Below are positions 1 to 14,977 of a DNA stretch of 64,000 nucleotides, one piece after another. Made by a program: the position numbers and the translations under genes. How positions within the stretch are numbered: the first letter of the stretch is position 1; the number at the start of each line of letters is the position of its first letter. Source of the DNA: Nocardia xishanensis NBRC 101358 (lineage in GTDB: Bacteria > Actinomycetota > Actinomycetes > Mycobacteriales > Mycobacteriaceae); the NCBI RefSeq assembly GCF_001613365.1, contig NZ_BDCF01000008.1, positions 186,001-250,000 on the forward strand. Reading direction: 5' to 3'. The notes under the pieces were generated by a model. The model searched no databases. It saw nothing but the letters and a program-made list of their open reading frames with translations, and was not told where the DNA came from.

Positions 1-851
1 TCCAGGAAACGGCCCGCGACCCCGGTCGCGTTGGCGCCCAACGCCAATGCGCGGGCGATGTCAAGCGGTGAGCGGATGCCGCCGGAGGCGAAGAGATCGA
101 TCCCGGTGACGCCCGCGCAATCCACCAGGCAGTTGGGCGTCGACTGGCCCCAGTTCTCCAGGAACGAGAAGTCCGCCGCGGGGCGCCGATCGTTCTCGAT
201 GCGCGCGAAATTGGTGCCGCCGCGGCCGCCGACATCGGCCACCGCGACGCCCGCGTCGCGCAACCAGGCGACGGTGGGCCTGCTGAGACCGAACCCGACC
301 TCCTTGACGATCACCGGCACCGGTGTGTTGGCGGTGATGCGCTCGATCTGGCGCGCCCAAGACCCGAAAGACCGGTCCCCCTCGGGCATGACGATCTCCT
401 GGACCGCGTTCAGGTGGATCTGGAGGGCGTCGGCTTCCAGCAGATCGATCGCTCGCCGCACCTCGTCCAGCGTCGCGGTGGCGTTGACGTTCGCCATGAC
501 GAAGCCGTGCGGATTCTCCTGTCGCAGCACACGAAAAGTGTCGGCGACAGCGGGATCGCGGAAGTAGGCGCTCATCGATCCGGATGCGATGGGGGTTCCG
601 GTTTCGCGGGCGGCGATGGCCAGTTGCCGGTTGATCTCTCCGGTGTGCTCGCTGCCTCCCGTCATGCCGTTGACGAAAAGCGGCGTCTCCCAACGCTTTC
701 CGATGACGTCGACGGCCAGCGACACGTCCTCGCCGTCGATGCCTGCGAGGGCGTGGTGGACGAAGGTCACCGAGTCGAAGTCGTTGGGGCCCGCGTCGCG
801 CTGTTGGCTCACGGCATGGCGAACATGATCGTCTTTGCGGCTGGCGGTCAT
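1..851 (-). CDS. fni: Type 2 isopentenyl-diphosphate isomerase (partial, C-terminus beyond window)
   Basis: Interconverts IPP and DMAPP using FMN and NADPH in the cytosol, the last step that feeds prenyl synthases. The reading frame starts with ATG at 851, encoding MTASRKDDHVRHA, which carries the RKDDHV N-terminal signature of this family. Further typical segments follow: FVNGMTGGS, the QIHLN motif, and a GGRGGTNFARIE flavin-binding stretch. Its ATG overlaps the TGA of the upstream phosphomevalonate kinase by 4 bp, so the two are translationally coupled. The frame is open to position 1. In Streptomyces mevalonate clusters HMG-CoA reductase and HMG-CoA synthase follow next; here they would lie outside the window. 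Confidence 0.95.
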   Translation of the reverse strand, partial: MTASRKDDHVRHAVSQQRDAGPNDFDSVTFVHHALAGIDGEDVSLAVDVIGKRWETPLFVNGMTGGSEHTGEINRQLAIAARETGTPIASGSMSAYFRDPAVADTFRVLRQENPHGFVMANVNATATLDEVRRAIDLLEADALQIHLNAVQEIVMPEGDRSFGSWARQIERITANTPVPVIVKEVGFGLSRPTVAWLRDAGVAVADVGGRGGTNFARIENDRRPAADFSFLENWGQSTPNCLVDCAGVTGIDLFASGGIRSPLDIARALALGANATGVAGRFL

Positions 852-1930
852 CGGCGATCCCCTTCGAATGGATGTGTTCGCAACGACAGCGGCCGGATGC
901 CCGCGGCGACCCAGCGGCCGGTGAGTTCGGTGATCGCCGCGCGGCGAGTGCGTTCGATGAGCGCGATGCCGCAGTCGCCGCCGCCCGCACCGGAGGGTTT
1001 CGCCGCGGCGCCGACCGCCTCGCCCGCCTCGCACAGCGCACGCAGCGAAGGCGTCATGATGCCGAGCCGCGCTTTGCTATCGAGGGTGACGAGAAGTTCC
1101 CGGGCACAGTTGATTTCGGCCCGGATGCCGAGCGAGTCGTCGGCCTCCAGCGCGGCGGTGAGTCGCTGGACGCAGCGGTCGCTGCGCGACACGAAGTCGG
1201 CATCCGCGCCGCCGAGCCCCGCGACCATTTTCGGTGTCGACGCGGGCTTCGCGGTCCAGCCGACCTGCATCGCGAGACCCGTCGGCGTGGGCAGCGGGCG
1301 CACCGACAGCCCGGGCCATGGCGCACGGAGTGCGGCGTCCACCCCGCTCTCCCCCGCCAGCTCGGCTACTCGCTGCCGGTCGGGGGAACAGTAGGCGATC
1401 CAGCCACCCCAGGTACTCGCCGCCACGTCGCCGCCGGAGGCGCGCGGGTTGATCGACACGGTGGCCAGCATCGCCAGCCGGTAGCGATCCATCGGGCTCA
1501 GGTCGAGCCCGTGAAACCGCCCCAGCGCCGCGACGGTGGCCACCGTGACGGCCGCGCTGGATCCGAGGCCGAGCTTTTTCCCGTTCTCGTCGGCGAGGTC
1601 GGTGCTGATGCTCAACCGGTAGGAACGTGCCGCGATCCCGCGCTCGGCGAGCAGCCGTTCGACGATCGCGGCCGCCGCGAAGACGTAGGTGAAGTTCGAC
1701 GGCACAACGCCATCCGCGGTCGACGGGACCAATCGGCCGCCGATGCGCCCGCAGGACAACGTCACCCCACCGTCGAGATCGGAACGCAGCGTGGTGACTT
1801 CGTCACCGGCCTCGTCCACCGTTGCGGTCGCGTAGCGGTCGACCGCGGTGAGCACCGCGTGGCGTCCAGGCTCGACGACGGCGTACTCCCCTGCGATGAA
1901 CAATTTGCCCGGGGCGCGACAGGTGATCAT
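848..1930 (-). CDS. Phosphomevalonate kinase (GHMP family)
   Basis: Phosphorylates mevalonate-5-phosphate to the diphosphate with ATP. The protein is 360 aa and begins MITCRAPGKLFIAGEYAVVE, the GHMP N-terminal motif. A GLGSSAAVTVAT phosphate-binding loop follows around residue 110 and a C-terminal PSGAGGGDCG motif near residue 320. The start at 1930 overlaps the stop of the decarboxylase gene by 4 bp (ATGA), which fixes the start. It sits between diphosphomevalonate decarboxylase and IPP isomerase, the order known from Streptomyces mevalonate clusters, which separates it from other GHMP kinases. Confidence 0.95.
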   Translation of the reverse strand: MITCRAPGKLFIAGEYAVVEPGRHAVLTAVDRYATATVDEAGDEVTTLRSDLDGGVTLSCGRIGGRLVPSTADGVVPSNFTYVFAAAAIVERLLAERGIAARSYRLSISTDLADENGKKLGLGSSAAVTVATVAALGRFHGLDLSPMDRYRLAMLATVSINPRASGGDVAASTWGGWIAYCSPDRQRVAELAGESGVDAALRAPWPGLSVRPLPTPTGLAMQVGWTAKPASTPKMVAGLGGADADFVSRSDRCVQRLTAALEADDSLGIRAEINCARELLVTLDSKARLGIMTPSLRALCEAGEAVGAAAKPSGAGGGDCGIALIERTRRAAITELTGRWVAAGIRPLSLRTHPFEGDRR

Positions 1931-2976
1931 CGTGCGCCGTCCGGGACCAGCGCGGCGCCAGGGCCGAGATGCGCCACCGGCATGTCGACGACGCCGCCGA
2001 CCTCGCGCAGGTCGGCGATCACCCGATGCTCGTCGGCGCGGGCGCACAGCACCGTGACATTCGGTCCGGCGTCGATGGTGGCGTACGCGGCGATGCCGTC
2101 CGCGCGCAGCGCCAGCACGCAATCCAGGACCTCGACCGACCGCGGCGACAGGTATCGCACCGACGGCCTGGCCAGGAGCATGCTGGCGTGCATCCCCAGG
2201 GCGTTGCGCTCCGCGATCTCTCCGACCGCGGGCAGATCGCGGCGCGCGATCGCCTTGCGCATCTCCTCGAGGTCGATCCTGGACGCGTCGGCCCACGGGA
2301 GATAGAAGGGCGACGTGTCACAGGTCCGCCGCATCGCCTCCCGGCTGGACACCGTCTTCGACGCCTTGTCGACGACGGCGACGACCAGAGCCGGATCGAG
2401 CGCGTCGCCGTCGACCGGTTCCGCGTAGGAATTCGCGTCCCCCGCTTCGCCATTGCCCTCCCCGGCGTGCCAGACCACGAAGCCGCCGAAGATGGACCGG
2501 CAAGCCGATCCCGAGCCCCGCCTGGCGAGTCGTGACAGCGCGCGGGCATCGGCGTCGAGTCCGTAGGCGGCGGCCGCCGCGACGGCGAGCGCCGCGAAGC
2601 CGCTCGCGGAGGAGGCCAGGCCCGCACCGGTCGGCCCGGCGTTGGTGGACACGACCTCGGCGTGTTCGTCGCGGCCTGCCCGCGCGCGCACCAGATCCAG
2701 GAACCGCGCCACCCTGGCGTACGCCTCGCCGACCGCGGGACGTTCGTTCAGCACGACCGTGTCGGCCGGTTCCGCACTCAACCGCACCGTTGTCGTGGTG
2801 GGGTAGATGTCGAGTGTCATCGACAGGCTTCCCGTGACGGGAAGGAAATACGACTCGTCGCGCTTGCCCCAGTACTTCACCAAGGCGATGTTCGGGTGCG
2901 CGACAGCGGTCGCCGCGTCGTCGCCGAATCGATCCGCGAGCGGATCGGCGAGTTCTGCTCCAGGTGTGAATGTCAT
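1927..2976 (-). CDS. mvaD: Diphosphomevalonate decarboxylase
   Basis: Catalyses the ATP-dependent decarboxylation of mevalonate diphosphate to IPP. The 349 aa protein has the family's N-terminal AHPNIALVKYWGKRD motif, the LPVTGSLSMTL segment, and the GLASSASGFAAL nucleotide loop. It ends with a DAGPNVTVLC region that lines the active site in known structures. Length and motifs fit the bacterial enzyme. The gene lies 43 bp after mevalonate kinase and overlaps phosphomevalonate kinase by 4 bp, so all belong to one transcript. Confidence 0.96.
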   Translation of the reverse strand: MTFTPGAELADPLADRFGDDAATAVAHPNIALVKYWGKRDESYFLPVTGSLSMTLDIYPTTTTVRLSAEPADTVVLNERPAVGEAYARVARFLDLVRARAGRDEHAEVVSTNAGPTGAGLASSASGFAALAVAAAAAYGLDADARALSRLARRGSGSACRSIFGGFVVWHAGEGNGEAGDANSYAEPVDGDALDPALVVAVVDKASKTVSSREAMRRTCDTSPFYLPWADASRIDLEEMRKAIARRDLPAVGEIAERNALGMHASMLLARPSVRYLSPRSVEVLDCVLALRADGIAAYATIDAGPNVTVLCARADEHRVIADLREVGGVVDMPVAHLGPGAALVPDGAR

Positions 2977-3019: not shown

Positions 3020-4033
3020 TCATGGCTGTCCGTCTCGGGTCGGGACGATCCAGGTCCGCGCCGCGCCGGCCCGGCTCAGCGCCGCACGCACCCTCGCGGC
3101 GTCGTCGCCGGTGTCGGTGAGGGCGACGACGCATCCGCCGAGGCCGCCGCCGGTGAGTTTCGCGCCGTACGCGCCCGCGTCGTGCGCTGCGGTGACCAGT
3201 GCGTCGATCTCGGGTGTGCTGACGCCGAGTTCGGCCAGCAGTTCTTGGAATTCGAGCAGCGTCTTGCCCAGCGACTCGGCGTGACCGGCCGCCAGATCCG
3301 CCGCTGCCGACTCGACCAGGTCCGTCGCGTGTTCCAGCACTCGCTGAGCCGCCCGTCGATCCGACTCCAGCTTGCGGCGGACGGCCGCGACCGCGTGCTG
3401 CGTGGCGCCCGGTACCCCGGTGTCGGCGATCACCAGGGTGGCGTCCAAGCCGATGGCCAGCCCGCGCGCCGCGCCCGCCCGGAACCAGATCGGTCCGGTC
3501 GCCACCGCGGTGCTGGCGTCCACGCCGCTGGCCCGGCCGTGCGCGAACTGTTCACCGCACTGCACCAACTCGTAGAGGATGCCGGAATCGATGGACCGGT
3601 CGTAGAGATCGGCGGCCGCCCGCACCGCGGCCGCCGCGCACGCCGCACTCGACCCCAGTCCGCGCGCGGGCGGGATCTCGCAGTCGAGCGCGACCTCGAC
3701 CACCTCACCGGCCAGGCCCCACCGCCGCAACGCCTCCTCGACCGCTACGTGCGCCCCTGACGACGCGCGCTCCGCGGTACGTATGCCGCCCGCTGCGAAC
3801 CGAAAGTATTGTCCCGCAGGAGAATCGCCCTCCCACGAAACATCGGGACGATCCCGGTGGGCGACCGCGTGCGCCGACAGCGCTGGCAAGGGAAACGCGA
3901 TGGCGGGCGTGCCGTGCACCACCGTGTGCTCGCCGAGCAGGATCGCCTTGCCATGGGCGCGACCGATGCCGCGCCCTCCCTCCGCCTCCGCGGCGGTGAG
4001 TTTGCTGCCCTCGCGAACGCGATCGCTGTTCAC
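3020..4033 (-). CDS. mvk: Mevalonate kinase
   Basis: Phosphorylates mevalonate at the 5-position, the first kinase step of the pathway. The 337 aa protein shows GKAILLGEHTVVHG at residues 28-41, the ARGLGSSAACAA loop, the SGVDASTAVATG substrate-binding motif and a C-terminal LTGGGLGGCVV motif. These are specific to mevalonate kinase among GHMP kinases. The start is a GTG at 4033, preceded at proper spacing by GGAGAG. About 150 bp separate it from the methyltransferase-like gene upstream, the largest gap in the operon, so an internal promoter is possible. Confidence 0.95.
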   Translation of the reverse strand: MNSDRVREGSKLTAAEAEGGRGIGRAHGKAILLGEHTVVHGTPAIAFPLPALSAHAVAHRDRPDVSWEGDSPAGQYFRFAAGGIRTAERASSGAHVAVEEALRRWGLAGEVVEVALDCEIPPARGLGSSAACAAAAVRAAADLYDRSIDSGILYELVQCGEQFAHGRASGVDASTAVATGPIWFRAGAARGLAIGLDATLVIADTGVPGATQHAVAAVRRKLESDRRAAQRVLEHATDLVESAAADLAAGHAESLGKTLLEFQELLAELGVSTPEIDALVTAAHDAGAYGAKLTGGGLGGCVVALTDTGDDAARVRAALSRAGAARTWIVPTRDGQP

Positions 4034-4185: not shown

Positions 4186-5022
4186 TCACAGCCGCTGATC
4201 CGAACGACGGAAGAGCGCTTGGCGGAGACTCGCCCGCGCCGAGGGGCCGAGCGGCGACGGGAAGAAGGCGGGTACCTGCGCGGCGTAGGTGCGGTAGGCC
4301 GCCCCGAAGCGAGCGACGAGGTCGCGCTCTTCCAGGAAGGTGCCAAGCAGGATGTAGCCGGTCATCCCGACCGCCCACAGCAGGTGCCCGGCCGTCATGT
4401 CGCTGGCACACCAGAAGGAGAGCAGCAGGCCGGTCATCAGCGGATGACGCACCAGTCGGTAGGGCCCGTGCACCTGGAGCCGGTCCATGGTCGCGTCGGG
4501 CACCTGGATGACGTAGTGGCGGTAAGCCTGACTGATGCCGAGCAGGTGAAAGTGGTTGAGCAGCAAGGTGGCCGCGTACACCAGCACGAAGCCGAGCCAG
4601 AATCCGGCGTCGAGCGCGATCCCGACGACGCCGTCGGCCGACCAGATCCGCTGCGGCAGCGGCTGCCAAGCCAAGCACAGCACCCACATCACCAGGCAGA
4701 CCATCACGATGTAGACGGTCCGCTCCAGGGCTTCGGGCACCCACCGGGTGATGAACGCCTTGAACGCGGGCCGCGACATACCCGAGTGCTGCAGGCCGAA
4801 CAGCGCGATCAGCAGCACGTCGATCGCGAGAGCCGGACCGGTCGCCAGGTGTGGTCCCTCGTCGACGGTCTTCGGCAGCCACCAGCCTCCGGCGAACAAC
4901 AGCATCAGGGGCACGGTCACCCCGGCGACGCCGTAGACGCCGAAGGCCAGCAGGAACGGGACGAGCCGGCGGCGATCCGTCAGCGCGCCCCGAACCGAAT
5001 GCCGCGTGGTGGTCAGATCCAT
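4186..5022 (-). CDS. MddA/NnrU-like integral membrane methyltransferase
   Basis: A 278 aa membrane protein with about six hydrophobic segments and the isoprenylcysteine-methyltransferase-type C-terminal core: PYRLVRHPLMTG, a FWCASDMTAGHLL segment, and EERDLVARFGAAYRTY. The N-terminal QHSGMSRPAFK and VPEALERTVYI segments match the methanethiol S-methyltransferase (MddA) branch well. The RHP and EERD motifs bind S-adenosylmethionine in this superfamily. The ATG at 5022 lies inside the 3' end of the desaturase gene (10 bp overlap), so the genes are translationally coupled. Placed inside a terpenoid operon, it may methylate an isoprenoid intermediate; that role is inference, and the family name does not fix the substrate. 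Confidence 0.75.
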   Translation of the reverse strand: MDLTTTRHSVRGALTDRRRLVPFLLAFGVYGVAGVTVPLMLLFAGGWWLPKTVDEGPHLATGPALAIDVLLIALFGLQHSGMSRPAFKAFITRWVPEALERTVYIVMVCLVMWVLCLAWQPLPQRIWSADGVVGIALDAGFWLGFVLVYAATLLLNHFHLLGISQAYRHYVIQVPDATMDRLQVHGPYRLVRHPLMTGLLLSFWCASDMTAGHLLWAVGMTGYILLGTFLEERDLVARFGAAYRTYAAQVPAFFPSPLGPSARASLRQALFRRSDQRL

Positions 5023-6029
5023 GCGAACCAGGGCAGGAACCGCAGGCGGACCGTGCCCTCCTCCATCCGCTTGTCCAGCTTGGTCTTCCACCGCTCGCCG
5101 TAGGGCGCGTCGAGGAAGCCGCCGGGCCGGGCCAGGCGCCACGAGGACTGGATCGTCATCCAGTAGGGCACGATGACGGCCGCGTCGACCTGCCGCATGA
5201 AGTCGAGCTTGTCGGGGATCTGGCTCCAGTGCACGCCCGGGTACCGGTGGTGCACGCTGTGGTAGCCCTGGTTGAAGATGAAGAAGTTCAGCCAGTTACC
5301 GGCCGTGTTCAGCGATTTGCTCGGGTCGTCCTCGAACACCCGCGCGGGCGCGTGGGTCAGCCAGGCGAAGTATCCGGAGTTCACCTGGGTGATCAGGAAC
5401 GGCAGACCCCAGAACAGCGCGAACCGTTCGAAGCCCGCGACGTACCAGATGCCGACCGGCAGCAGCAGGGCCAGCGTGAGGTCGAAGACGAACTGGTGGC
5501 GCCGCTTGCGCCTGCCCTCGGACGGGTTGGCGGCGAAGATCATTCGCATGGTGTGGTTCTTGACGATGGTGCCGTACCTGATCCAGTACCAGACGGCACC
5601 GAGCCCGCGCTCCATGCCCTCGGTGGAGGTGACGTCGCCCGGTCCGTCGTTGAAGCGGTGATGGTTGAGCACGTGCACCTCGCGCATCTCCGCCGACGTC
5701 AGCGTGGCAGGCAGACAGCACATGATGTCCACGACTCGGTTCAGCCTGCGCGACACGAACAGCGCCCGGTGCGTGTGCATGTGCATCACGCCGATGGTGA
5801 GCGAGAAGTTCAGCAGCGTCAGCAGGATGATCAGCGGGACCGCGAAATACCAGTTCGTGGCGAAAGGTACGAACAGGCCGAAGGACAGTAATACGACCCA
5901 GGCCACGATGTGCAGCAGCGGGCCGACGTTCGCCGGATGCTCGAGCTTGAGCACCCGGCGGCTGAACGGCGGTCGGTCGGACGCCGCCGGTGGCGTTCCG
6001 TCGCCGGGACGTGTTGGCACGGTGGTCAT
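5013..6029 (-). CDS. Membrane fatty-acid-desaturase-superfamily enzyme
   Basis: A 338 aa di-iron membrane oxygenase of the desaturase/hydroxylase superfamily. The three histidine boxes are present: H83-x3-H87, H119-x3-HH (123-124) and H257-xx-HH (260-261). Hydrophobic segments occur around residues 38-80 and 182-225. The start at 6029 is chosen because GAGGAG sits at correct spacing before this ATG; a longer frame upstream lacks such a site. It lies between a head-to-head prenyl synthase and a methyltransferase in the mevalonate operon. It could desaturate, hydroxylate or ketolate an isoprenoid chain, or a fatty acid; the substrate cannot be read from the sequence. Confidence 0.85.
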   Translation of the reverse strand: MTTVPTRPGDGTPPAASDRPPFSRRVLKLEHPANVGPLLHIVAWVVLLSFGLFVPFATNWYFAVPLIILLTLLNFSLTIGVMHMHTHRALFVSRRLNRVVDIMCCLPATLTSAEMREVHVLNHHRFNDGPGDVTSTEGMERGLGAVWYWIRYGTIVKNHTMRMIFAANPSEGRRKRRHQFVFDLTLALLLPVGIWYVAGFERFALFWGLPFLITQVNSGYFAWLTHAPARVFEDDPSKSLNTAGNWLNFFIFNQGYHSVHHRYPGVHWSQIPDKLDFMRQVDAAVIVPYWMTIQSSWRLARPGGFLDAPYGERWKTKLDKRMEEGTVRLRFLPWFAWI

Positions 6030-6087
6030 AGTCGATCTCCTCTGGTATCGGTGTCGGGCGTTCCTACGGGATGAGTTGGGGCACTCG

Positions 6088-7353
6088 TCATGGGCGATCT
6101 CCAGTGGTTGTCGTTTCGAGGGCGGCGAGTTGGAAATTCGTGGCGAGCGCACGCATCGCGTCGGCGCTGTGGGGTGGCAGCCGCTCCAGGGCGCCGAAGG
6201 CCAAGTGGTCGGCGATCATCATGGTGCGGATGTCGGCGGCGGAAAGCCGACCCGTCAACGGTTCTTCCGGCAGCGACCGCACTAGCGCGAAGGTGGTGTC
6301 GACGATCAGCGGCACCATCGAAGGCGCCAGCGTGCGTGGGTCCACCGCACCGAGCAACTCGGCCGCGGCTTCGGACCCGGCGCCGAGTTCGGGCGAGGTG
6401 TCCAGCACCCGGTGGATCGCCTCGTCGGCGGATCGCTGTACCCGCTCGACCATCTTCGTCCAGTAGGCGGATGACCAGGCGGCCAGCGCGGCCGCGCCGA
6501 CCGGCCGCCGGTAAGGCGCCGGGGCGCCGACCGCGGTGCACAGGAAGCCGGTTGTCGTGATGGTCATGTACGCCATCGCCGCACGAGCGCCCGCGCTCGG
6601 AGTGTGCGGGCCGAGCCGGGCCAGCAGGGCGAATCCACCCAGTGCGGGCGCCAGCAGCCTCAGCATGACCACTTGGGTCAGTTCCTTGCGGTCGGCGACA
6701 CCGTAGAGGTCCAGTTCGCCGTCGCGCAGGTCGTTGGCGGACTGGGCGATGACGCCGACGCATCCGGCCAGCTCGCGCAAATCGTCCTCGGCGCACGCAT
6801 CGGGGGCGACCAGGGAGCACGCGTAGTGCGTCACCCGGCCGAGCACGCCCTCGCCGTAGACGACCCGCGACAGCGAGGAATCGAGGTTGCGGGCCATCAC
6901 ATCGCCGATGTCGAGCACGAGCCCGCCCACCCGCTCGCGTCCCGCGGCAGGCAGCGCGGCCACCAGCGACCTGATGTCCTGAATGCGTTCAGCCAGAACG
7001 ATATCGACGGCCTCGCTGTCACGCATCGCGACCCGGTCCGGCGGTGGGGGCGGAGTGTCGGTGCTGCCGTTGAGATACTCGGCGGCGGCCCGCACGGCGC
7101 TACCCGCGAGCGGACGGTCGACGAGATCCTCGTAGGCGTCGAGCACCCGGCAGGCCAGCAGGGCCGCGGTGGCCTCGGCCCGCAGGGCCGGGCCGAGGAA
7201 ACCGATGGCGATGCCCATGTTCCTGGCCGCCGGGATCAGCGCGAGCCGGGCCAGTTCGTCCGGCGAGTCCGCCGCCCGCAGCGCGGCGAGGTCGGGCGCG
7301 CGGCGCAGGTTGCGCAGCCCGTGGGCGAGGATGCCGAGTCGTCCTCCGGTCAT
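6088..7353 (-). CDS. Squalene/phytoene synthase-like prenyl transferase
   Basis: A 421 aa protein of the head-to-head trans-prenyl transferase family, longer than usual bacterial squalene or phytoene synthases. The first Asp-rich motif is DAYED at residues 72-76 within a CRVLDAYEDLVDR helix. The second is NDLRDGELD at residues 207-215, preceded by QSA. Both magnesium/diphosphate-binding clusters are thus intact. The ATG at 7353 overlaps the stop of the polyprenyl synthase gene by 4 bp, implying that the GGPP-type product is its direct substrate. No phytoene desaturase (crtI) is nearby, so an ordinary carotenoid route is not evident. The C-terminal 150 residues match nothing I recognise. Confidence 0.8.
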   Translation of the reverse strand: MTGGRLGILAHGLRNLRRAPDLAALRAADSPDELARLALIPAARNMGIAIGFLGPALRAEATAALLACRVLDAYEDLVDRPLAGSAVRAAAEYLNGSTDTPPPPPDRVAMRDSEAVDIVLAERIQDIRSLVAALPAAGRERVGGLVLDIGDVMARNLDSSLSRVVYGEGVLGRVTHYACSLVAPDACAEDDLRELAGCVGVIAQSANDLRDGELDLYGVADRKELTQVVMLRLLAPALGGFALLARLGPHTPSAGARAAMAYMTITTTGFLCTAVGAPAPYRRPVGAAALAAWSSAYWTKMVERVQRSADEAIHRVLDTSPELGAGSEAAAELLGAVDPRTLAPSMVPLIVDTTFALVRSLPEEPLTGRLSAADIRTMMIADHLAFGALERLPPHSADAMRALATNFQLAALETTTTGDRP

Positions 7354-8510
7354 CGGGACACCACCTGTAGTGCTAGGTCGCGCAGGTCGTCCCGCGCGGG
7401 AGTGGGCGGGAACACTTCGAGGGCCTCGCACGCCGTCTCGGCGGCGCGGATCGCGGCGTCGTGAGCGGCCTTGGTGGCGCCGCTGCGCACCAGGTCGGCT
7501 TGCAGTTCGGCGCTGGAAGTCTCTTCGGAGAGCCACATTTCGCGGGCATCGGGCCGGATCGCCAGCCATTCGATCACCGGCCAGGTCGGTACCCTGCGGT
7601 CGAGGTCGCCGCAGGCCTCCTTGCCGAGCGCGGGGTCGCCCTCGACGTCGCGCACGTCGTCCATGATCTGGAAGGCCAGCGAGAACTGCTCGGCGTACTG
7701 CATCAGGGCTCGCAGCCGGTCGTGGTCCACGCCGCCCGCCGTGCCGCCGTACGAGCAGGCCAGCCGGAACAGCGTGCCGGTCTTCGCGCCCGCGACGACC
7801 TCGTAGTGCCTGCGCAGCGCGGCATCGTCGACGTCGGGCGCCATGGTCTCCACGAGCTGGCCTGCCGAAAGATCCGAGATGCGGTCCAGATAAGTGACGC
7901 CGGGAGCCTCACCGAGGTGCGCGCAGACCACGGGATTGTTCTCCAGTACCCGCGCCAGCACTTCCAATGCGGTACCCGCCATATGAAATCCGGCGCGTGC
8001 GGCGGTGCGGATACCGAACAACGCGGGTACCGAGGGTGAATCGCGCCGCAGCAGGGAACTGTCGCAGATGTCGTCGTGGATCAGCGACGATTCGTGGAAC
8101 ATCTCCATGGAGCAGGCCAGGTCGACGGCGTCGGCCACGGAGGTGGACACGGCCGAGGGCAGCAGGCGGTGGCAGTCCAGCACGAGGCGGGCCCGGACCC
8201 GCTTGCCGGGGGCGGCCAGGACGTGCTGGTAGATGTCGTCGAAAACGCTACCGGTGACGAGCATTTCGCGCATGCGCTCGGTGACCATCGCCGGCTGGTA
8301 GATCGGCGCGATCGGCTGGGCGTCGACCTGGTCCGCCGCGCCGGCATTCGCGCTCGCGGCGTCGGCGCTGTCGGCACGTCCGTTCGACGCGGGGGCGGTG
8401 ACGCGCGCCCGGTCGTCCACGACCGCGTGCGCGGTGCTGGACCGTCCGGACATGGCCGCCACCAGGTGCTCGTCCTGCTGATGTTCTGACGGTGACGTGG
8501 GATTGTCCAT
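7350..8510 (-). CDS. Polyprenyl (geranylgeranyl-type) diphosphate synthase
   Basis: Condenses IPP with allylic diphosphates to a long-chain prenyl diphosphate. The 386 aa protein has a low-complexity Ala/Asp-rich N-terminal extension of about 65 residues, then GKRVRARLV, the first Asp-rich motif DDICD at 146-150 and the second DDVRD at 284-288. The residues four and five positions before the first Asp are serines rather than aromatic, which by the known chain-length rule favours GGPP or longer over FPP. It is the first gene of the operon; AAGGAG lies at good spacing before ATG 8510. Confidence 0.93.
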   Translation of the reverse strand: MDNPTSPSEHQQDEHLVAAMSGRSSTAHAVVDDRARVTAPASNGRADSADAASANAGAADQVDAQPIAPIYQPAMVTERMREMLVTGSVFDDIYQHVLAAPGKRVRARLVLDCHRLLPSAVSTSVADAVDLACSMEMFHESSLIHDDICDSSLLRRDSPSVPALFGIRTAARAGFHMAGTALEVLARVLENNPVVCAHLGEAPGVTYLDRISDLSAGQLVETMAPDVDDAALRRHYEVVAGAKTGTLFRLACSYGGTAGGVDHDRLRALMQYAEQFSLAFQIMDDVRDVEGDPALGKEACGDLDRRVPTWPVIEWLAIRPDAREMWLSEETSSAELQADLVRSGATKAAHDAAIRAAETACEALEVFPPTPARDDLRDLALQVVSR

Positions 8511-8975
8511 TGGCGGGAGGGCTCCTTACGTGTCGTAACGGCGGCGGAGTCGGGCATGCGACAGGCGACGACGAGCCTGGCGGGCGTCGATTACACGGGG
8601 ATCGAAGTACTTACGAGGTGGCCGGCCGGCGGCGCGCGGCGATATCGCCACCGCGATGCCGGTGCAGGTGGTCGTCGCTTGTCCGGATAGGTGTGCAGCG
8701 CAGGCCAGAGGCGAGTTCGCACTCGCCGTCGATGTTCAATGTCAGCGGGCGCCGAGCGAGTCGCTCGCGATCCCAGCCGCCGGGAGCGCTCCATGGGCCG
8801 GTCGGCGGCGGGGTCACCGCCGAGTCGAGCATCCGCGGTCGTTCGCTTCCGAAACCGCGGCCGAGCCATGTCGATGTCTGTGAAATCTTCTGTGCGGCCA
8901 CGTGATCACGAAAGATGCCGCCTGTGGTCATCGAGGCGAACGGGCTGCGCGTGGCAGCGGCCGCACCCTCGGTAC
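8511..8975. other. Gene-free leader and eroded DNA upstream of the terpenoid operon
   Basis: No convincing gene in 465 bp. The part nearest 8510 must hold the promoter of the mevalonate/terpenoid operon. A small dyad, TTACG-TGT-CGTAA, lies at 8526-8538 directly upstream of the ribosome binding site and could be an operator or chance. Short open frames on both strands here do not resemble known proteins. Confidence 0.5.
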
Positions 8976-9201
8976 GGAGAACGCCGAGCCGACCGGGCTC
9001 GACGCGCATGAGCGCAATTCCTGAGGATCGCCGTTGTCCCCCAAGAGATTTCGTGTCGTTCTCGCACGATCCGGTCTCGTCCACAACCAGCACGCCGTCC
9101 GGATCGCCCGGGTGCTCGTTCACGTACGCGCGCAGATCGTCACGCAACCCGTAGTCGTAGCGCACAGTCTTGCCCAACAGTCGATGCGTACCGTCCATCA
9201 T
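8976..9201 (-). pseudogene. IS701-family transposase remnant
   Basis: About 75 codons on the minus strand match the catalytic core of IS701-family transposases: LRDDLRAYVNEHPGDPDG followed by VLVVDETG, which carries the first catalytic Asp, then TKSLGGQRRSSG. Intact members continue with a KKGTKS-type segment; here the corresponding residues are altered. The similarity fades on both sides, and no N-terminal domain, second or third catalytic residue or terminal repeat can be found. It is a decayed internal fragment of an insertion sequence. Confidence 0.8.
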
Positions 9202-11974: not shown

Positions 11975-12685
11975 TCAGCTGAGGCGATGGGCGGCGAGCA
12001 GGTCGGCGTCGCCGAGGATTTCGCCGATGGGGCCGTCCGCGACGATGCGTCCTGCGTCGAGGATCAGCGCGCGGTCGCAGATGCGCTGGGCGTAGGGCAG
12101 GTCGTGGGTCACCAGGACCAGGGTGGTCGGCAGGGACAGCAGGATGTCGGCGAGTTCGCGGCGGGCCACCGGGTCCAGGTTGGCGGCCGGTTCGTCGAGG
12201 ACGAGTACCTCGGGACGGCAGGCCAGGACGGTGGCGAGGGCGGCCCGGCGGCGTTCGCCCAGCGACAGGCGGGTCGGAGAACGATCGGCCCGATCCGACA
12301 TGCCGACCGCGTCGAGCGCGAAACGCACGCTCTCGGTGAGGTGTTCGCCGCGCACACCGAAATTGCCCGGCCCGAACGCGACGTCTTGTTCGACCGTCGG
12401 CATGAACAGTTGGTCGTCGGGGTCCTGGAACACCACGCCGACGCGCTGGCGTATGGCGCGCACGGTGGTGCGGTCCAGGCGGGTCGTGCCGATGTACACA
12501 TCGCCGGAGCTCGCGGTGAGCACGCCGTTGAGATGCAGCATGAGCGTGGACTTGCCCGCGCCGTTGGGCCCGAGGACCGCGACCCGCTCACCGTCGGCGA
12601 TCTCGAGATTCACCCCGTGCAGCGCACCGGTCCCGTCCGGATACGCGAACGCCAGGTCGACAAGGCGCACGGCGGACGCGTTCAC
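11975..12685 (-). CDS. cbiO: Cobalt/nickel ECF transporter ATPase
   Basis: The ABC ATPase subunit that energises metal uptake through CbiM and CbiQ. The 236 aa protein has Walker A GPNGAGKST, the Q-loop FQDPDDQLFMPTVEQDVAFGP typical of ECF ATPases, a slightly unusual signature LSLGERRR, Walker B VLVLDEP and the switch His in THDLPYA. The GTG at 12685 overlaps the cbiQ stop by 4 bp (GTGA), which supports it over the longer frame. It is the last gene of the cbiMQO operon. Confidence 0.93.
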   Translation of the reverse strand: MNASAVRLVDLAFAYPDGTGALHGVNLEIADGERVAVLGPNGAGKSTLMLHLNGVLTASSGDVYIGTTRLDRTTVRAIRQRVGVVFQDPDDQLFMPTVEQDVAFGPGNFGVRGEHLTESVRFALDAVGMSDRADRSPTRLSLGERRRAALATVLACRPEVLVLDEPAANLDPVARRELADILLSLPTTLVLVTHDLPYAQRICDRALILDAGRIVADGPIGEILGDADLLAAHRLS

Positions 12686-13443
12686 CGGGCGACCCACGCG
12701 CCGACACAGACTCCGACCGCGACCGTGGTGGGAAGGCAGGAGAGGAACCATTGCCCGCGCGTGGCCGCAGGTGTGCCGAAATCGGCTATGGTGCCGGTGA
12801 ATCCGCGCGAAAGCATGGCCGAGTGGACCCGTTCCCCTCGTTCGTAGGATCGCAGGAACAGGCTACCGACGCCGCGCGCGGTGGCGCCGATCTGGCGAAT
12901 CGTGCGTGGATCGTCGCCGCGCGAGATCCGTGCCAGGCGCATGCGCGCCGCTTCGTCGGCGATCACGTCCACGTAGCGCAGCATCAGCACCACGATCATG
13001 ACGATCATGCCCGGCACGTGCAGCCTGCTCAGGCCGCCAGGCAGTTCCCGAACGCTCGTCGTTGCCGCCACGGTCAGCGAGATACCCACTCCGAGCGACC
13101 CTTTCGCGATGATGCCCCATGCGGCGTGCAGGCCCGTCGTCGACAGCGAGAGTCCGAGCACGGTCGTCCGCGGTTCGCCTGCCGCGAAGGGCAGCAGGAT
13201 CGCCAGCACGACGAAGGGCAGCTCGATGAGCAGTCGCGGCGCGATCCACCGCGGCGGGATGCGCGCCACGCGCCAGACCGCGACCAAGCCGGCCGCGTAC
13301 AGGGCGAACGGCCACAACATCTCTCGTGGCGTCGCGACCACGGCGAAGACCGTGACCACCGCGCAGACGATCTTCACCTCGGCCGGAGTCCGATGCACCG
13401 GCGAGCTGCCGGGCAAGTGCAGCCGGTGGCTGACGGCGGACAC
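12682..13443 (-). CDS. cbiQ: Cobalt/nickel ECF transporter transmembrane subunit
   Basis: The scaffold membrane (T) component of the energy-coupling-factor transporter. The 253 aa protein has about five hydrophobic helices and the cytoplasmic coupling helices with the Ala-Arg-Gly motifs, seen here as RLARISRG and SAMLSRGF. The GTG start at 13443 directly abuts the cbiM stop, and its end overlaps cbiO. Position and motifs leave little doubt about the family; the choice between nickel and cobalt cannot be made from this subunit. Confidence 0.92.
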   Translation of the reverse strand: MSAVSHRLHLPGSSPVHRTPAEVKIVCAVVTVFAVVATPREMLWPFALYAAGLVAVWRVARIPPRWIAPRLLIELPFVVLAILLPFAAGEPRTTVLGLSLSTTGLHAAWGIIAKGSLGVGISLTVAATTSVRELPGGLSRLHVPGMIVMIVVLMLRYVDVIADEAARMRLARISRGDDPRTIRQIGATARGVGSLFLRSYERGERVHSAMLSRGFTGTIADFGTPAATRGQWFLSCLPTTVAVGVCVGAWVAR

Positions 13444-14505
13444 CTAGGTCGACTCCGATTCGGGCGACGCGCTTCCGGTCTCCGAAACATGTTCGGCCCG
13501 TCGCCGCTCCGACCGTCCGGCTCTGACGAGGCGCACGACAGCGAACAGCGTGGCGAAGGCGGCGGCTACGCCGAGGACGCCCGCGATGCCGGTCAGCCGG
13601 TCGTTGCCGCCGATCGTGTAGTCGGCCAGCGGCGAGTCGGCCAGCGTGTGACTCTCCGCGTTCTGCGCGATGCATTCGCCGTGCAGTTCCTCGGTTCCGT
13701 CGACCTCGACCACGGTGCAGCCGCGTTGCGTCGTGGCGTCGAGCCCGTCGGGTTGCGAACTCGCGGCATAGGAGAGCAAGCCCGCGACGAGGACGGCGAC
13801 GGCGGCGAAACCGAAGAGGAATCCGTTCGCCGGCAGTGCGGCGCGCGGCGTCGCAGGGCGATCGGTGGCGCGGAGCAGATACACGAGGTCGGGGCGGGCG
13901 TTGACGACGGCGATGACGGTGATCGCGGTGACGATGCCTTCGCCGATGCCGATCAATGTGTGCGTGACCAGCATGTACCAGGTGACCGCGCCGACGGTGG
14001 AGCCCGCGGCCCCGCCGATCGCGTATTGGACGACGAAACCCATTGCGGCGCTGACCGTTCCGAGCAGTGCGGCGGCGAATGCGACAGCGCCCACTACGCC
14101 GCGCCTCGGCGCGCGGGGTAGCGATCGGCGCGCGACGAGATAACCGGCCGCTACGCCGATCAACGCCATGTTCGTGATGTTCGTGCCCAGTGCCGTCAGC
14201 CCGCCGTCGGCGAAGAGCAGTGCCTGCACGATCAGCACGATGGCCACGCACAGCGCACCCACGTAGGGTCCGACGAGGATCGCGGCGACCGCTCCGCCCA
14301 GCAGATGCCCGCTCACGCCGGGCAGGATCGGGAAGTTCACCATTTGCACCGCGAAGATGAACGCGGCCACCAGACCTGCCATCGGCGCGGCCCGCTCGTC
14401 GAGTTCGGCACGCGCGCGCCGCGCCGCGAAACCCAGTGCCGCGAGGGCGATTACCGCGAACAACACGGAGGTGGGTGCGTCGACGATGCCATCGCTCATA
14501 TGCAT
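13444..14505 (-). CDS. cbiM: Cobalt/nickel substrate-binding membrane protein CbiM with CbiN-like PDGLE domain
   Basis: The metal-binding (S) component of 353 aa. It starts MHMSDGIVDAP; in this family the His at position 2 takes part in metal binding together with the free N-terminus, so the ATG at 14505 is strongly preferred over longer frames. The conserved MVNFPILPGVSGHLLGG segment follows. After about seven helices, a C-terminal region with QPDGLDATT and a periplasmic loop before a last helix corresponds to the PDGLE/CbiN module, so CbiM and CbiN functions are fused. It is divergent from an ArsR-type regulator gene, with an operator-like dyad between. Confidence 0.93.
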   Translation of the reverse strand: MHMSDGIVDAPTSVLFAVIALAALGFAARRARAELDERAAPMAGLVAAFIFAVQMVNFPILPGVSGHLLGGAVAAILVGPYVGALCVAIVLIVQALLFADGGLTALGTNITNMALIGVAAGYLVARRSLPRAPRRGVVGAVAFAAALLGTVSAAMGFVVQYAIGGAAGSTVGAVTWYMLVTHTLIGIGEGIVTAITVIAVVNARPDLVYLLRATDRPATPRAALPANGFLFGFAAVAVLVAGLLSYAASSQPDGLDATTQRGCTVVEVDGTEELHGECIAQNAESHTLADSPLADYTIGGNDRLTGIAGVLGVAAAFATLFAVVRLVRAGRSERRRAEHVSETGSASPESEST

Positions 14506-14546
14506 GGCCGAGGTGGTGTCGCTCACCTCCCGATACGATACGCGCA

Positions 14547-14572
14547 ACATATGAACAACTGGACCGATATGT
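14547..14572. promoter_or_regulatory. 12-2-12 imperfect dyad, candidate ArsR/SmtB-family metal operator
   Basis: Between the divergent cbiM and arsR-type genes lie two 12 nt half-sites separated by 2 nt: ACATATGAACAA at 14547-14558 and, on the other strand, ACATATCGGTCC from 14572 to 14561. The arrangement and the ATATGAACA core match the 12-2-12 operators known for SmtB/CzrA/NmtR-type sensors. Its position would let one regulator control both genes. Binding by the adjacent regulator is inferred. Confidence 0.65.
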
Positions 14573-14623
14573 AAGCATTGGTGACGACCGGCCCCGTCGA
14601 GGAGAGAACGGCAGAGTAGAACA

Positions 14624-14977
14624 GTGGCCCTCACTCCCCCGCTCGACCCCGAACACGCCAGGCCAGCCGCGCCCGGCCTGGATGTCGCCGGCATCGAACA
14701 CTGGGCCCACCGTTTCGATCTGCTCTCCGACGCCAATCGGCTCCGTCTGCTCGTATGCCTGCATCACACGCCGGATCAGAGCGTGACCGAGCTCGCCGCC
14801 GCCGTCGGCATGACGGCCACCGCCGCGTCGCACGCGCTGCGCCTGCTGCGCTACCAAGGTTGGGTCACCGCGTCCAAGAGCGGCCGAATCGTCCGGTATC
14901 GCCTCGCCGACGAAACGATCCATCGACTCCTGCACTGGATCGGCGCACCCCACGCCCCCGAACCGAGTCCGCTTTGA
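14624..14977 (+). CDS. ArsR/SmtB-family metal-responsive repressor
   Basis: A 117 aa winged-helix protein. The DNA-recognition region SVTELAAAVGMTATAASHALRLLRYQGWV is followed by the beta-wing with SGRIVRYRL. The C-terminal DETIHRLLHWIGAPHAPE contains His residues placed as in the alpha-5 metal site of NmtR/SmtB-type sensors, but the His-rich tail of NmtR is short here. The start is GTG 14624. Divergent orientation from cbiMQO and the 12-2-12 dyad between them suggest it represses the transporter when nickel or cobalt is sufficient. The metal specificity is inferred from context only. Confidence 0.88.
   Translation: MALTPPLDPEHARPAAPGLDVAGIEHWAHRFDLLSDANRLRLLVCLHHTPDQSVTELAAAVGMTATAASHALRLLRYQGWVTASKSGRIVRYRLADETIHRLLHWIGAPHAPEPSPL

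Follow-up and report, generated by a model that had tools for sequence, protein, structure and literature searches.

An operon of 11 genes in Nocardia xishanensis NBRC 101358 opens with four genes, for a prenyl diphosphate synthase, a divergent squalene/phytoene-synthase-like enzyme that we call X, a membrane di-iron desaturase/hydroxylase and an MddA-like integral membrane methyltransferase, followed by genes for all six enzymes of the mevalonate pathway and, last, a flavin-containing/Baeyer-Villiger-type monooxygenase (FMO/BVMO). The operon runs past the left edge of the 64,000-nt stretch analyzed here (the window; positions 186001-250000 of contig C8 in a 7.69-Mb genome). We consider it somewhat better than an even chance that this operon makes an undescribed isoprenoid lipid, which would be joined head to head, probably to a C40 chain, and then oxidized, methylated and exported. 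Genome comparison shows the gene content, order, predicted families, co-occurrence and conserved catalytic residues of the module. An original prediction, made from the letters of the window, had placed these four genes at 4186-8510 and at the head of a mevalonate operon. The coordinates and domain calls agree with this, and all four are on the minus strand. That prediction did not include the extension of the operon to a BVMO, the MmpL transporter genes linked in some relatives, the atypical second Asp motif of X or the occurrence of the four genes without a mevalonate operon.

Conservation of the module with its mevalonate genes in Nocardia

X was found in 29 of 148 sampled Nocardia genomes. 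Besides the window's own locus, we examined 29 Nocardia loci from 28 genomes, one of which has two. The order synthase-X-desaturase-methyltransferase-mevalonate kinase is kept in 28 of the 29. L052, the second copy in genome G128, consists of synthase and X alone, and the same genome also has a complete operon. Two loci (L044 and L054) are cut by contig ends; among the 26 uncut loci, all six mevalonate enzymes are encoded downstream in 26/26, and a BVMO then follows in 22 (it is missing there from L040, L043, L045 and L062). Wherever a locus has both synthase and X, the two are neighbors. Along with the Rhodococcus and Mycobacterium loci described below, these counts bear out the expectation that the four genes are conserved together.

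We also searched the 148 Nocardia genomes for HMG-CoA synthase and obtained matches in 51, with copies 80-100% identical to that of the operon in exactly the 29 genomes that carry X. None of the 119 genomes without X has an HMG-CoA synthase like the operon's, and the 22 of these that have others show at most 71% identity. Because the set of genomes with 80-100% identical HMG-CoA synthase is exactly the set that carries X, this mevalonate operon goes with the X module, and other Nocardia mevalonate genes do not. From these 22 genomes it follows that at least one other kind of mevalonate gene set exists in the genus.

The module outside Nocardia and its linkage to MmpL transporters

Rhodococcus and mycobacteria also have the four genes as a unit, but without those of the mevalonate pathway. 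A scan of genome contigs gave 37 loci. Three Rhodococcus loci have the four genes followed by a BVMO, with no mevalonate genes within about 10 kb; one Mycobacterium metagenome-assembled genome (MAG) has the four genes followed by an FMO; and of two Actinomycetota-MAG loci, both with synthase, X and desaturase, one (L091) has no methyltransferase. In the genus around genome G185, 17 of 297 genomes match X, 14 strongly and three weakly over 42-65 positions. X was not found in 59 genomes of genus g4, in a search without a positive control; the phylum sample (396) returned just the strain itself and two distant relatives of squalene synthase (SQS) and phytoene synthase (PSY), and a search of plasmids gave no match.

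The synthase-X-desaturase order also occurs in a gammaproteobacterial MAG (L105, 8880-14444), at 24, 33 and 42% identity. In this locus the desaturase is followed not by the MddA-like gene but by an unrelated class I S-adenosylmethionine-dependent methyltransferase, and the presence of an unrelated methyltransferase at the same place argues that methylation is a real step. In a tree of X, from which nine of 61 rows were left out (seven duplicates and two fragments) and whose bootstrap had not settled, the gammaproteobacterial row is placed among those of Nocardia, with a branch of 6.37, a position that we take as a long-branch artefact. We also noted a convergent Rieske-domain gene beside the module in L105, and a patatin-like phospholipase gene upstream of the module, on the same strand, in M. 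simulans (L082 5958-6953), G596 (L128 17496-18338) and M. gastri (L086 7835-8680).

In five mycobacterial loci, those of M. simulans, G596, M. gastri, M. szulgai and M. angelicum, an MmpL gene follows the module on the same strand, and in six of the 29 Nocardia loci (L037, L038, L039, L046, L049 and L061) one lies directly upstream and divergent. The linked MmpL genes score well above the PF03176 cut-off of 20.5 (527.8 bits in L082 and 501.2 bits in L039). When the M. simulans MmpL was compared with genome G011, the best genome-wide match was the neighbor of the module (L039), with 400 bits for the larger piece, and the next gene scored 90. Weak MmpL matches (23-32% identity) near L078, L084, L093, L095, L103 and L130 were not counted as linkage. 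Derivation of the module MmpL from the MmpL of a carotenoid (crt) locus was considered and found no support, as among the matches listed for G560 and G596 no MmpL lies within 5 kb of a PF00494 gene. Passages of PMC9861118 describe mycobacterial MmpL proteins as exporters of envelope lipids and siderophores.

Fold and active site of X

In single-sequence searches X matched no model of Pfam or NCBIfam (E ≤ 0.01) and, by phmmer, no PDB entry (E ≤ 1). Its Rhodococcus orthologue, 51% identical to the window X, scores 29.1 bits on PF00494 (cut-off 26), while the gammaproteobacterial relative scores 13.4 bits, below that cut-off. One alignment (A1) took 24 of the 30 X rows found and another (A2) a chosen 21, and a profile from 21 relatives reached the squalene synthases of T. 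cruzi (E 4.9e-7) and human (5.3e-5). An AlphaFold2 model of X (mean pLDDT 77; below 50 at residues 1-3, 324-346 and 406-421) matched human squalene synthase 3weh with Z 23.3 and rmsd 3.6 over 285 residues at about 16% identity. The top 22 fold matches are all squalene synthase entries (Z 21.8-23.3), and matches to dehydrosqualene synthase (Z about 16) and carbazole prenyltransferases (Z 13-14) are weaker. Given the orthologue score, the profile match and the predicted fold, X is, by its modeled fold, a member of the squalene/phytoene synthase superfamily, with an altered site.

X shares with squalene synthase (PDB 3weh, 3wca, 7wgh) the all-alpha fold (Z about 23), an LDxxED motif I and the Arg, Tyr, Gln and NxxRD positions, here R69, Y166, Q204 and N207xxR210D211. 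Motif I, D72xxE75D76, is kept in 41/41 distinct desaturase-linked copies, as are D211 and E213 of motif II (N207DxxD211xE213). The last Asp of motif II, D215, is present in just four of 54 distinct X rows (the window and the distant relatives L105, L106 and L107), and is replaced by A, E, V or T in the other 50; the claim that X has intact Asp motifs thus calls for a qualification, as D72xxE75D76 and D211 are conserved and D215 is not. A second departure from squalene synthase is position 65, which aligns with Tyr73 of the human enzyme (HMMER alignment; the number 73 comes from the title of 3wei together with the alignment). This residue is Leu in X, Val in three Rhodococcus rows, Ile in one MAG and Tyr in the distant L105-L107. 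Also unlike the context of squalene synthase, the operon genes include no sterol or hopanoid gene.

The carbazole prenyltransferases CqsB4, NzsG and LvqB4 likewise have an SQS/PSY-derived fold and Asp motifs, and NzsG and CqsB4 are placed on a branch with squalene synthases in passages of PMC7466098. X might, like them, attach one prenyl chain to a non-isoprenoid acceptor that is then decorated by the oxidase and the methyltransferase, which would fit the atypical motif II and the change at the human Tyr73 position. We regard this as unlikely: the fold of X is nearer squalene synthase than CqsB4, no carbazole genes were seen, no recurring acceptor-making gene stood beside the module in the eight loci whose neighbors were read by eye, and the dedicated mevalonate supply suggests a mostly isoprenoid product.

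X could also be a class I terpene cyclase that arose from the SQS/PSY fold and turns one geranylgeranyl diphosphate (GGPP) into a diterpene, to be oxidized and methylated. The operon has one prenyl diphosphate synthase and a BVMO related to the terpenoid enzyme PtlE (Table 1), and X combines an Asp motif with an N-D-x-x-D-x-E stretch that we take to resemble an NSE-like site. The residues surrounding the X motifs follow squalene synthase, however, Pfam and NCBIfam scans gave no terpene synthase family match, and a large lipid would accord better with the linkage to MmpL and the membrane-bound tailoring enzymes, so that we hold a cyclase to be quite improbable.

Loss of catalytic residues in mycobacterial copies without the desaturase

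Eight full-length mycobacterial copies of X are paired with the synthase alone (L131, L134, L095, L135, L136, L137, L138 and L139). All eight have lost at least one of D72, E75, D76 and D211, the residues intact in the 41 distinct desaturase-linked copies. The changes across the eight are H72; R72; N72; A75 with G76; N76 with N211; H72 with H76; K72 with R76; and S76 with S211. These copies form one clade (100/100). The synthase in these loci keeps its motifs, and X is still an open reading frame. A search with the window desaturase in seven pair-only genomes found no match anywhere in six. In the seventh, MAG G577, there is a second module, which is divided between two contigs and whose site is intact: the X copy at a contig end (L141) has all four residues and Asp at 213, and the desaturase is on another contig. 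For the Mycolicibacter pair-only copy, the desaturase was looked for at its locus only. The other X rows without a desaturase, besides L141, are L052, the fragment L140, which has no synthase, and the distant L106 and L107, which have an intact site.

Pairwise dN/dS is 0.41-0.60 for X in the eight pair-only loci and 0.18-0.38 for the synthase of the same loci. For X in complete loci it is 0.14-0.43 (six pre-chosen pairs), with one pair, at 0.43, overlapping the pair-only range. The values for pair-only X indicate a constraint that is relaxed but not gone, and the decayed X is possibly a retained non-catalytic partner or possibly in slow decay.

The synthase and the tailoring enzymes

Both DDxxD motifs of the prenyl diphosphate synthase are present in 58/58 rows (51 distinct loci), and the residues ahead of the first motif are small (Ser-Ser), not aromatic. 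Small residues at this place point to GGPP as product, so that GGPP is the probable product of the synthase and substrate of X. We rejected a role for this synthase as encapsulin cargo: its best NCBIfam match is NF041169 but reaches 143.6 of 450 bits, the prenyl synthase of contig C34 also scores on this model (225 of 450 bits), and the strain's family 2B encapsulin gene (737 bits, above cut-off), at contig C46:20334-21680 (L142), is unlinked to the operon.

The desaturase carries the histidine motifs HMHTH, HVLNHH and HSVHH, whose histidines are invariant in 46/46 rows (41 distinct loci), the gammaproteobacterial relative included. Its scores against the carotenoid enzymes CrtW (NF045690, 19.6 of 350 bits) and CrtR (NF045688, 24.3 of 475 bits) are both below cut-off. 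At the operon end, nine Nocardia loci (L041, L042, L046, L048, L050, L053, L055, L056 and L061) have a tandem pair of BVMO genes, a sign that oxidation in some Nocardia strains may take more than a single step.

The family that scores best for the methyltransferase is MddA, an integral membrane enzyme according to passages of PMC12904073. The score is below the cut-off of that family, and that for PF04191 is just under its own (Table 1). Unlike MddA, the module methyltransferase is always next to the desaturase in the loci examined. MddA-like paralogues (40-45% identity) occur elsewhere in five of the nine mycobacterial genomes searched. The family assignment and the paralogues would fit action on a thiol, as by MddA, so that the product would be a sulfur-bearing isoprenoid or the gene a hitchhiking methanethiol detoxifier. 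This we judge very unlikely in view of the score, of the 10-bp overlap with the desaturase gene and of the unrelated methyltransferase in the gammaproteobacterial locus; no sulfur-insertion gene was seen among the domain calls of the unit, though no dedicated search for one was made.

Relation to carotenoid synthesis

The strain's two PF00494 genes are on contigs C34 and C2. Contig C34 carries a CrtI-family gene (TIGR02734, 400 bits; cut-off 238) in addition to its PF00494 gene, and its prenyl synthase is nearest to the mycobacterial farnesyl/geranyl diphosphate synthase model (431 of 600 bits). A search with the strain's own CrtI (E ≤ 1e-3) found nothing in the 64-kb window or in L003, a 20-kb stretch over the window's left end (contig C8 172001-192000); lycopene cyclases were not searched for. 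With the crt genes on contig C34, the prediction that no crtI lies in or beside the cluster held. No PF00494 match was obtained in the M. gastri genome (G750, 99% complete, 150 contigs), although it has the module with an intact X. The location of the crt genes elsewhere and the M. gastri result together indicate that the module is separate from carotenoids, and we rejected a carotenoid role for it. Least credible of the alternatives, therefore, is a side branch of ordinary carotenoid synthesis with an extra crtE/crtB and a ketolase/hydroxylase-like enzyme, for which the weak CrtR and CrtW matches of the desaturase, far below the family cut-offs, and the mmpL gene of the M. kansasii crt locus (passages of PMC9861118) could be cited.

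That M. kansasii locus, crtEIBYcYd-mmpL1, resembles the module in having a prenyl diphosphate synthase near an SQS/PSY enzyme and an MmpL close by. The module differs from crt clusters in having no crtI, in an X that the PSY model misses, and in its desaturase/hydroxylase, membrane methyltransferase and, in many loci, BVMO; in Nocardia it differs further in having its own mevalonate operon. In passages of PMC7413640 the crtE-crtB-crtI family is conserved in the Nocardia genomes studied, with the lycopene cyclase separate; the text of that paper does not contain the word 'mevalonate', and those passages do not describe this cluster.

Layout and surroundings of the operon

The operon genes are listed in Table 1. 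Of the mevalonate enzymes, HMG-CoA reductase alone is below its NCBIfam cut-off. The genes had been described as translationally coupled. The overlaps were confirmed: synthase and X share 4 bp (ATGA), desaturase and methyltransferase share 10 bp, and coupling is upheld within these two pairs. Gaps of 58 bp between X and desaturase and of 152 bp between methyltransferase and mevalonate kinase mean that it is pairwise, not continuous. The joints in the L003 part are short or overlapping.

Table 1. Genes of the operon in transcriptional order. Plain coordinates refer to the window and those marked L003 to the 20-kb stretch over its left end; bits are followed by the cut-off of the model.
Gene product	Position	Strand or direction	Basis
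Prenyl diphosphate synthase (GGPP-synthase type), operon gene 1	7350..8510	-	PF00348, 158 bits (27)
X, divergent squalene/phytoene-synthase-like enzyme	6088..7353	-	421 aa from ATG 7353; orthologue, profile, fold
Membrane di-iron desaturase/hydroxylase	5013..6029	-	PF00487, 125.3 bits (29.7)
MddA-like (PEMT/ICMT-type) integral membrane methyltransferase	4186..5022	-	NF045656, 217.8 bits (270); PF04191, 24.8 bits (25)
Mevalonate kinase (MVK)	3020..4033	-	TIGR00549, 228.1 bits (163)
Diphosphomevalonate decarboxylase (MDD)	1927..2976	-	TIGR01240, 286.1 bits (171)
Phosphomevalonate kinase (PMK)	848..1930	-	TIGR01220, 377.2 bits (166)
Type 2 isopentenyl-diphosphate isomerase (IDI2), crosses the window's left edge	1..851	-	TIGR02151, 345.8 bits (281)
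HMG-CoA reductase (HMGR)	L003 13772-12711	same as operon	306 bits, E 3e-91; TIGR00533 cut-off 441.8 not reached
HMG-CoA synthase (HMGS)	L003 about 12714-11542	same as operon	above NCBIfam cut-off
FMO/Baeyer-Villiger-type monooxygenase (BVMO)	L003 11545-9935	same as operon	nearest NCBIfam, terpenoid BVMO PtlE, 203.7 bits (1100)

A promoter and terminator scan upstream of the operon gave a single promoter-like site, on the opposite strand, and an Rfam scan of the window gave no match. Short remnants lie directly upstream of gene 1 in two related strains (window 8611-9201 and L034 3775-4317) and presumably resemble one and the same transposase. Further upstream, the genes at window 11975-14736 resemble, from their translations, an energy-coupling-factor metal/vitamin transporter.

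Proposed pathway

In the pathway that we favor, the mevalonate enzymes, assigned by homology, would supply isopentenyl and dimethylallyl diphosphate, from which the synthase would build an allylic diphosphate, probably GGPP. X would ionize the allylic diphosphate and most likely couple two of them head to head through a cyclopropylcarbinyl intermediate, giving a non-aromatic C40 skeleton. The membrane di-iron enzyme would hydroxylate or desaturate this skeleton, the membrane methyltransferase would cap the new polar group as an O- or S-methyl, and the BVMO/FMO that most Nocardia loci and Rhodococcus have would oxidize the product further. MmpL, where linked, would probably move the lipid towards the cell envelope. 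A wider proposal, which we hold with somewhat less than even confidence, is that an undescribed class of envelope lipid is common to Nocardia, Rhodococcus and the relatives of M. kansasii, a non-carotenoid C40 head-to-head product oxidized by the di-iron enzyme and methylated by an MddA/ICMT-type enzyme, with a dedicated MmpL as exporter; its synthase would belong to a new subfamily of the SQS fold whose altered site (no Tyr73, incomplete motif II) points to unusual coupling chemistry.

Several points weigh against a head-to-head C40 lipid. The chain length is a prediction from the first enzyme, and an activity of any of the four proteins was not found in the literature searched. Position 65 of X is Leu in the window, without the Tyr, and motif II lacks a conserved D215; X may therefore not complete both steps of the head-to-head reaction. 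SQS-fold enzymes can also prenylate aromatics, as passages of PMC7466098 report for CqsB4/NzsG. The Nocardia pair-only copy L052 keeps an intact site, in a genome that also has a complete operon. The desaturase model is weak (pLDDT 68.6) and gave no fold match at E ≤ 0.001. MmpL was not seen beside 23 of the 29 Nocardia loci, with about 4 kb upstream covered, and had no match in the window or L003.

Streptomyces clusters of the terpentecin and naphterpin types also join a dedicated mevalonate operon to terpenoid genes; they use cyclases or ABBA prenyltransferases, and the operon described here has an SQS-like enzyme instead. Head-to-head terpenoid pathways are already known. The gene combination described here, in which the SQS-fold enzyme escapes standard family models, was not found in the literature searched, which left most subscription journals uncovered and included passages of PMC3848822, PMC7413640, PMC9861118, PMC7839719, PMC12904073 and PMC7466098.

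If the proposed pathway is right, the mycobacterial and nocardial envelope, which plays a central part in drug tolerance and in contact with the host, would contain a new family of surface isoprenoids, and a gene set for finding the molecule would be at hand. The active site of X is unusual for an enzyme with the SQS fold, and the natural series of X copies without catalytic residues where the downstream enzymes are missing is useful for asking which residues matter. For annotators, it would mean that one Nocardia mevalonate operon serves this product and not general isoprenoid supply.

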